Shown: positions 5,564 to 10,526 of the stretch, piece after piece | Position numbering within the stretch: the stretch's first letter is position 1 | Layout of the letters: every line of letters begins with the position of its first letter | IMG/VR virus record: IMGVR_UViG_3300033144_007170 | Span: 1 to 64,000 of that record | Strand: one strand, 5' to 3' | DNA from: a virus | Length of the DNA stretch: 64,000 bases | Notes under the pieces: generated by a model | What the model saw: the letters and a program-made list of their open reading frames with translations, nothing else | The model's database searches: none | What the model was told of the DNA's origin: nothing | Made by a program: the position numbers and the translations under genes

Positions 5564-5770
5564 CAATGAACAAAGATTATTAAGTACCTTTTTTGCTGAA
5601 GCATCAGAAGCAAACAAAAGGGCTATTAGAGTCGTCTTTCCTTCAGTTTTAGGTATATTAAATAATTGTTCCGCAATTCGATGTTGCTGCTCATTAAGTT
5701 CTATTCTTCTGCTTTTACAAAAATTTAGAAATGTTGGTAAATCATTCGTAACTTGTCGTCTATATAACAT
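5561..5770 (-). CDS. fragment resembling a terminase/ATPase N-terminus
   Basis: 69 residues. The middle reads RIELNEQQHRIAEQLFN and then PKTEGKTTLIALL, a degenerate Walker A (the first Gly is missing) at the position found in large terminases. It stops right at the truncated attC-like site. It looks like the stub of a longer ATPase, but a self-contained small protein cannot be excluded. Confidence 0.5.
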   Translation of the reverse strand: MLYRRQVTNDLPTFLNFCKSRRIELNEQQHRIAEQLFNIPKTEGKTTLIALLFASDASAKKVLNNLCSL

Positions 5771-5810
5771 AAGAAATCTCCTTCGGCTATTTTATATTTT
5801 TCATCTTGAA

Positions 5811-6413
5811 TTATCTATTAGCTTTAAAAAAAGCTTTTGCGAACCCTTGTGGGGTTACTGCTCTTTTAGCAGCTTGTGTACTACTTGTTATATCTGATAT
5901 GCTTGGCAATTTTCTATTGTTTATTTTAAATCTTGCTTTTTCCTCTTCTGTCAATTCTATTTTTTTTGTTTTAGGAATGTTAAAATATCCCCATAGATCT
6001 GTCTTTTTTGTATAAGGATCTCCGAAATCGCAAGGATCAAAAGTAAAATAAGGGTACCCTAAAAATTGTCTTAATAAACACCTCGGATTTTCTAACGCCC
6101 AAAATTTAAGACCCCCGTCTTTTCGATATAAGGGCTCATATCTACATTCCCATATAACATTTAAACAGGCTCGTACAATTTCCATACCTTCCCGCAAATC
6201 TCTTTCCTTTTTTGCTCTGGTTCGTGCTAATGAAAACATCGTGCACGGGGGAGCTGCAAGAATTCCATATACATTTTTTGGGGGGAGGTATTCTCTCACA
6301 TCATTATCGGGAAGGCTGATCGATATAACGTTATAGCCGGCTTCCGTATATGGTTTTTCCCAACTTCCAGTTCCAGAGCATAGACTTAAAATTGTTTTTT
6401 GATTATTATTCAT
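5811..6413 (-). CDS. DNA cytosine-5-methyltransferase-like protein
   Basis: 200 residues. ILSLCSGTGSWEKPY is SAM motif I, AAPPCTMFSLAR is motif IV with the catalytic Pro-Cys, and WALENPRC matches ENV motif VI. There is no room for a long target-recognition domain, so this is a short phage type: it could be a minimal methylase, a base hypermodification enzyme or an inactive paralogue. With the adenine methylase at 860-1273 it suggests the phage DNA is modified. Confidence 0.75.
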   Translation of the reverse strand: MNNNQKTILSLCSGTGSWEKPYTEAGYNVISISLPDNDVREYLPPKNVYGILAAPPCTMFSLARTRAKKERDLREGMEIVRACLNVIWECRYEPLYRKDGGLKFWALENPRCLLRQFLGYPYFTFDPCDFGDPYTKKTDLWGYFNIPKTKKIELTEEEKARFKINNRKLPSISDITSSTQAAKRAVTPQGFAKAFFKANR

Positions 6414-9853: not shown

Positions 9854-9928
9854 TGGTAGCCGCATCAAGATTTGAACTTGAGTCGCCCGCTTATAAGGCA
9901 GGTGCTTCTACCATTGAGCTATGCGGCT
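9854..9928 (-). tRNA. tRNA-Ile(UAU), CCA encoded
   Basis: Acceptor AGCCGCA/TGCGGCT, then TA at positions 8-9, D arm around GCTC-AATGGTA, anticodon stem CCTGC/GCGGG with loop CTTATAA (anticodon UAU), T arm TCAAG-TTCAAAT-CTTGA, discriminator A and CCA. The anticodon reads AUA, a codon used often in this AT-rich genome and often scarce in hosts. It lies directly behind its own promoter. Confidence 0.9.
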
Positions 9929-9950
9929 TTTCCGTTTTTAATTTAAAGAA

Positions 9951-9979
9951 ACCATAGCATAGATTAATTCCATTGTCAA
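9951..9979 (-). promoter_or_regulatory. tRNA promoter
   Basis: TTGACA, 17 bp, TATGGT. The predicted transcript start falls about 15 bases before the first base of the tRNA, so this promoter serves the tRNA directly. Confidence 0.75.
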
Positions 9980-10240
9980 CAACTTAAATTTTTAGATAGA
10001 AGAGAGAGGAACCCTTACCTACAGACCTAAATTTTTAGATGAAATAGAAGGGTGCTTTACATAGTACAGATTAATAGTCCACAATTTGAATTTTTTAGTT
10101 AAAATATGAAGGGGTTCATGCGAGGTACTGAGCGTATCCGTTTTGCAAAAAAAGAAGAGGCGGGGGTCTCCTGTAGGATACACTGACAGTATTGTCATGT
10201 GTCACTGGTGGCAGTATGTCAGTAGTATCATGTCAATAGT
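9980..10240. repeat. repeat-rich non-coding stretch
   Basis: No credible gene. Three direct repeats of about CTAAATTTTTAGATNNNAT (near 9983, 10028 and 10084) are followed, at about 10180-10250, by six or more TGTCA/TGACA words in both orientations. Regular iteron-like spacing between promoters is compatible with a replication origin or a multi-site regulator-binding region. Confidence 0.5.
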
Positions 10241-10254
10241 GTCAGGACTAAAGG

Positions 10255-10290
10255 ACAAACAAAAGGCGCAAGCTGTATAAGCCTTGCGCC
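10255..10290 (-). terminator. intrinsic terminator of the small RNA
   Basis: Stem GGCGCAAG/CTTGCGCC with a ten-base loop, followed on the minus strand by TTTTGTTTG. Orientation is minus only; the plus side lacks a T tract. Confidence 0.8.
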
Positions 10291-10345
10291 CGTCTTTCTG
10301 TCTATCTAATACTAATCATCTCACATAAGCTACCTCCCTTTGGCC

Positions 10346-10375
10346 GTTAAGATCCATTAAAACAAGGATTGAAAC
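10346..10375 (+). repeat. solitary CRISPR-repeat-like unit
   Basis: Exactly 30 nt, beginning GTTAAGATCC and ending AAGGATTGAAAC. It has a 5-bp stem (GATCC/GGATT, one wobble) around a ten-base loop and the ATTGAAAC handle common in type I-B/III repeats. There is only one copy and no spacers or cas genes. The detected promoter transcribes the opposite strand. Confidence 0.4.
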
Positions 10376-10384
10376 ATTAATCTT

Positions 10385-10413
10385 ACTCTAACATAGAAAT
10401 TTGGAAAAGTCAA
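10385..10413 (-). promoter_or_regulatory. small-RNA promoter
   Basis: TTGACT, 17 bp, TAGAGT. The predicted start is near 10378, at the edge of the CRISPR-repeat-like segment. Confidence 0.65.
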
Positions 10414-10430: not shown

Positions 10431-10526
10431 TTACAGTGAACGTAAAGAAATTATTGCCGCCACCAGCGTAATCATAGCACAAACGGCATAAACAGAAGCT
10501 GGGCTTACATTAATAACAATATCCAT
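10431..10526 (-). CDS. 31-residue membrane peptide
   Basis: Strong AGGAGGGTAG ribosome site. One transmembrane helix (VYAVCAMITLVAAIISL) with an outside-in N-terminus and a single Arg near the end. Last gene of the 13.9-10.4 kb operon. Confidence 0.55.
   Translation of the reverse strand: MDIVINVSPASVYAVCAMITLVAAIISLRSL

Follow-up and report, generated by a model that had tools for sequence, protein, structure and literature searches.

A solitary type I-B CRISPR repeat in a phage genome, most likely an anti-CRISPR RNA locus and perhaps antisense to host repeats

Solitary CRISPR repeats and the RNA anti-CRISPRs (Racrs) that derive from them are known already. Racrs are understood as mimics of the repeat, and the mechanism was tested for solitary repeats of subtypes I-C, I-E, I-F and V-A by Camara-Wilpert et al. 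2023 (PMC10651486); all of the tested Racrs are sense RNAs, read in the direction of the repeat, and a sense promoter is often, though not always, present just upstream of such units. Host-type repeats are also found in viral CRISPR mini-arrays (PMC11656645), and ectopic repeats are used, with type I systems, by the CreA RNAs of CreTA modules (PMC8501985, PMC9458426).

The locus described here lies in a window of 64,000 nucleotides at the start of a virus record of 93,556 bp (IMGVR_UViG_3300033144_007170), and it adds a candidate of type I-B to the known solitary repeats. It resembles the Racr units in that a single host-type repeat, matching a known subtype, occupies an intergenic position within a short unit from promoter to terminator, with no cas genes found near it. 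It differs from them in that the repeat is of subtype I-B, outside the subtypes tested in PMC10651486, and in that the predicted promoter points the other way, towards transcription of the complementary strand, whereas no sense promoter above background was found just upstream. Since the tested Racrs run in the repeat direction, a transcript of the opposite strand would fall outside the Racrs as tested. If the antisense layout is real, it is a new variant: an antisense-repeat anti-CRISPR is not described in the literature searched, which covers the subject incompletely.

The comparison with the other two systems is less close. The viral mini-arrays likewise bring host-type repeats into a virus, and four of the viral relatives discussed below (L010, L011, L017 and L133) hold two repeats, but an array or mini-array needs two repeats or more, separated by a spacer, and the one repeat of this locus forms no repeat-spacer-repeat unit. 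CreA shares with this locus an ectopic type I repeat in a small RNA (here a predicted one); the toxin RNA, the pseudo-spacer target and the sense promoter of CreTA modules were not found here. A guide of the CreA kind would be a sense RNA in which the handle is followed by a pseudo-spacer that targets the host Cascade to a gene of the phage or host and so represses it. Although ectopic repeats are put to that use elsewhere, it is a very improbable explanation of this locus, where neither a sense promoter above background nor neighbouring cas genes were found, the 40 nt past the repeat match 12 nt or fewer elsewhere in the phage and in one host-type contig, and no pseudo-spacer partially matching a promoter to be repressed was found in either of these.

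The repeat and the arrays that share it

A preliminary description of this DNA placed a solitary element resembling a CRISPR repeat in the 30 nucleotides at 10346-10375. The 30-mer is present, but the true element is longer, comprising 37 nt on the plus strand at 10339-10375 (TTTGGCCGTTAAGATCCATTAAAACAAGGATTGAAAC). The 37-nt element matches Rfam model RF01320 (CRISPR-DR7) with 38.4 bits, which passes the gathering score of 37; there are no gaps against the model in the hairpin or in the ATTGAAAC end, and both the Cas6 hairpin and the handle are intact. It is intergenic, being overlapped by no open reading frame of 60 or more codons, and the record has no further copy even when three mismatches are allowed; no second TTGAAAC is found at array spacing from it. 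When the record is scanned with the 22-nt core, there are no mismatches at the repeat and five or six at the runner-up sites.

The identical 22-nt core is present in bacterial and archaeal genomes, in at least 115 stretches, and many of these stretches are arrays of 20-60 copies; the 23 nt at 10353-10375 are the portion of the phage repeat that is common to arrays and other viruses. A comparison of the 30-mer with CRISPR repeats, which the preliminary description had proposed as a check, gave a match far from chance: the last 30 nt of the phage repeat are identical at 29 positions to the array repeat of Clostridium liquoris DSM 100320. The preliminary description had also cautioned that the similarity might be fortuitous, and the 5′ 13-15 nt are indeed not clearly repeat-like; nevertheless, the 22 nt without a mismatch as against five at the runner-up, the Rfam score above threshold and the near-identity to a real array leave chance practically no probability. 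The phage element is a genuine solitary CRISPR repeat.

Its subtype is indicated by the cas genes of its relatives. Near the C. liquoris array are Cas3, Cas5h, Cas7/Csh2 and Cas8b/Csh1, which constitute a type I-B module, and further clostridial loci with such arrays carry type I-B genes. In a pooled scan of 33 proteins adjoining other arrays of the DR7 repeat family, the effector genes found were of type I-B, and the 25 families listed included none of any other effector type. A form shared by many type I-B or type III repeats had been attributed to the element, and its relatives bear this out for type I-B.

Arrays of the DR7 repeat family have the 3′ 22-24 nt in common and diverge in the 5′ 13-15 nt. 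The 5′ part of the phage repeat agrees with host repeats at 9 of 15 positions at best, a fit reached by C. liquoris and by one other. No host array was found to have all 37 nt; when 391 clostridial genomes and 208 genomes of the C. liquoris family were searched for the complete repeat, only C. liquoris itself emerged within the set limits. Among 1,278 spacers compared with the phage, the sole long match was to the repeat itself, and the 30-mer had only background matches in cultured phages and plasmids. In a Cloacimonadota array (L061), the spacer that follows the repeat at 1472 carries the same repeat in complementary form (GTTTCAATCCTTGTTTTAATG), as though its source had been a solitary repeat or a different array.

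Viral relatives of the repeat

IMG/VR has 26 stretches with the 18-mer TAAAACAAGGATTGAAAC, and in 24 of them the stem partner TCC is correctly placed; therefore, the 18-mer is CRISPR-derived almost wherever it is present. When 22 viral copies were compared, the 3′ 23 nt were near-invariant and both flanks freely variable, a result to be read as a contrast with the flanks and not as free conservation, because the search patterns fixed most of the 3′ positions. The 5′ halves are host-like in some viral copies and not in others, including the phage repeat at 10339-10375; over 37 nt, the copy in L005 has the same sequence as the repeat of a 47-copy array in a Tenericutes metagenome-assembled genome. 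Only the 3′ half, which includes the Cas6 hairpin and the crRNA handle, is kept by viral copies, and this hints at the requirements of such RNAs.

Several of these relatives have signals in the sense direction. Sense promoters were identified at L015 (p 0.003) and L137 (p 0.005), a sense hairpin and T-run follow the repeat of L139, and the repeat is enclosed by a stem in L004 (1700-1790, plus strand) and L012, in L136 (2759-2781, minus strand), in L137 (1740-1930, plus strand) and, by eye, in L008 (7140-7176, minus strand). Five other copies (L006, L135, L139, L141 and L142) are antisense to their neighbouring genes, and no good antisense promoter was found in any of the five. Among viral solitary repeats with clear signals, the antisense layout of the phage is the exception.

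Other features of the relatives were observed in passing. In several unrelated viruses the long stem is made of the non-conserved 5′ half and downstream sequence (z -3.0 in L004). Mini-arrays, or a degenerate second repeat at array spacing, are seen in L010, L014, L017, L011, L133, L140, L013 and L007. L139 has a tRNA gene (5703-5773, plus strand) about 170 nt upstream of its solitary repeat (5946-5968, plus strand), which is followed by the terminator-like hairpin. In two related viral contigs, L015 (400-560, plus strand) and the same region of L165 (minus strand), the strong sense promoter TTGACA-17-TATATT is followed by the DR7 repeat and then by two further hairpins that resemble the 3′ halves of other CRISPR repeats (CTCCGTAAGGAG..., CCCCGTAAGGGGACATGATTGAAAC); pairing of ATGTAAGTTTCAATC with GATTGAAACTTACAT could enclose the three hairpins in one stem. 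Rfam recognises only the first of the three, and our guess is that the whole may be a multi-repeat mimic.

Transcription signals and strand

On the minus strand, to which the preliminary description had assigned a promoter, a promoter-like sequence with an extended -10 element (TTGACT-17-TAGAGT with TG) is located at 10413-10385, with a predicted start near 10378, only 3 nt outside the repeat, from which the complement of the repeat would be read. The match was assessed by its agreement with the consensus and by its frequency in local shuffles, a good match being one that scores at least 10 with the TG bonus included. A promoter this good occurs with its start no more than about 15 nt from the anti-repeat in 0.9% of shuffles, and within 50 nt of it in 3.3%; consensus matches as such are common, five having been found in that region where 3.6 are expected. 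The evidence for the minus-strand promoter is modest (p about 0.01-0.03). Across the phage, good intergenic promoters seemed at first to be in excess on the minus strand (6 vs 0), but the excess is not significant against shuffles and is not counted as evidence here.

The intrinsic terminator that had been proposed downstream was recovered as a GC-rich hairpin (GGGCGCAAG...CTTGCGCC, then TTTTGTTT) at 10257-10291 on the minus strand, about 110 nt from the predicted start, with a folding energy of -18.3 kcal/mol (z -2.8). A simple terminator scan skips this hairpin because of its long loop, but a laxer scan detects it as one of only eight terminator-like sites on both strands of the 93.6 kb. The coding capacity of the phage is overwhelmingly on the minus strand (26,210 aa vs 1,490 aa), and the last open reading frame before the unit, 31 codons read from the sequence behind an AGGAGG-like site (10431-10526, minus strand), ends at 10431. 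As these upstream genes are on the minus strand, read-through from the operon would also yield antisense RNA, and the terminator may belong to that operon. The strand is the unusual feature of this locus: the genes lie on the minus strand, and the extended -10 promoter and the terminator are predicted to be read from it as well.

Because the operon alone accounts for the terminator and the read-through, and because the 5′ half of the repeat corresponds so poorly to known host repeats, the element might be a functionless relic of a host array, stranded in the 3′ untranslated end of the operon. A relic would drift, whereas here the 3′ 22 nt are unchanged and the flanks are not, in a pattern shared by about 20 unrelated viruses, and this explanation is considered unlikely.

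An ordinary sense Racr, the main rival, is possible, though doubtful. It would be transcribed from the plus strand by a promoter that the sigma-70 consensus misses, and its RNA would be bound and cut by Cas6 and would trap Cas6 and Cas7 in an inactive complex. This is the mechanism tested for solitary repeats of the other subtypes (PMC10651486), and it agrees with the intact hairpin and handle and with the sense promoters or enclosing stems of related viral copies. It is opposed by the minus-strand transcription predicted here. Near the repeat, no plus-strand promoter rises above background (the best scores 8, a value reached about nine times per kb), and neither a stem enclosing the repeat nor a good sense terminator was found.

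The predicted antisense RNA

From the promoter and terminator layout, we infer transcription of a minus-strand RNA from 10378 to 10255, of the 124 nt and the antisense polarity given in the preliminary description. The complement of the repeat falls within its first 40 nt. In the part that precedes the terminator, 186 of 200 shuffles are more folded than the predicted RNA, although the anti-repeat is on average only about 41% unpaired. With whole repeats of the DR7 family, calculated duplexes of the anti-repeat have energies of -42 kcal/mol for C. liquoris and -36 and -39 kcal/mol for two others, compared with -5 kcal/mol for an unrelated repeat.

The locus is most likely an anti-CRISPR RNA locus, perhaps an antisense one. 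We tentatively prefer the reading in which a captured type I-B repeat is read from the minus strand, giving an RNA antisense to host repeats. It is favoured by the genuine solitary DR7 repeat and its near-identity to a repeat of a type I-B array, by the promoter match only 3 nt away, the terminator on the same strand, the minus-strand genes and the lack of any sense promoter above background, and also by the weak folding of the RNA together with its strong calculated duplexes with repeats of the family. Against it count the sense direction of the tested Racrs and of the viral relatives with clear signals, the modest promoter, the terminator that the operon may own, the partial pairing of the anti-repeat, and the fact that conservation of the layout was seen in no phage relative. 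In our judgement, prior knowledge points to a sense RNA and the layout to an antisense one.

With somewhat more reserve, the antisense RNA may be proposed to act as a base-pairing anti-CRISPR that blocks crRNA maturation, potentially across many hosts. It would pair over 22-30 nt with the repeats of the host pre-crRNA, masking the Cas6 hairpin, the cleavage site and the ATTGAAAC handle. Processing by Cas6 would then be prevented, so that mature crRNAs and Cascade would be lacking, or else the duplex would be degraded. Because the pairing would target the half of the repeat that is common to hosts of the DR7 family, one antisense RNA might be usable against many hosts. If this is true, phages have, beside the repeat mimicry of Racrs, a second RNA strategy that relies on pairing and not on a decoy, with host-range rules different from those of decoy Racrs. 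The repeat family assembled here contributes further type I-B candidates.

No relatives of the phage were found in IMG/VR by a neighbouring gene, the terminase or the DNA polymerase, and when the terminase, AAA ATPase and DNA polymerase were compared with those of cultured phages, identities were below 60%, about 24-36% in the best rows. There was no convincing family match for the ten nearest proteins in NCBIfam or for the nine tested in Pfam. Adjoining the unit, at 10185-10250, is a cluster of TGACA/TGTCA words (CACTGACAGTATTGTCATGTGTCACTG...), possibly protein-binding sites. Beyond it, at 9944-10105 on the minus strand, two copies of a 24-nt sequence (9982 and 10025) and promoter-like stretches lead to a gene for tRNA-Ile(TAT) at 9854-9928, the only tRNA gene found, whose promoter outscores every other minus-strand match in the record.
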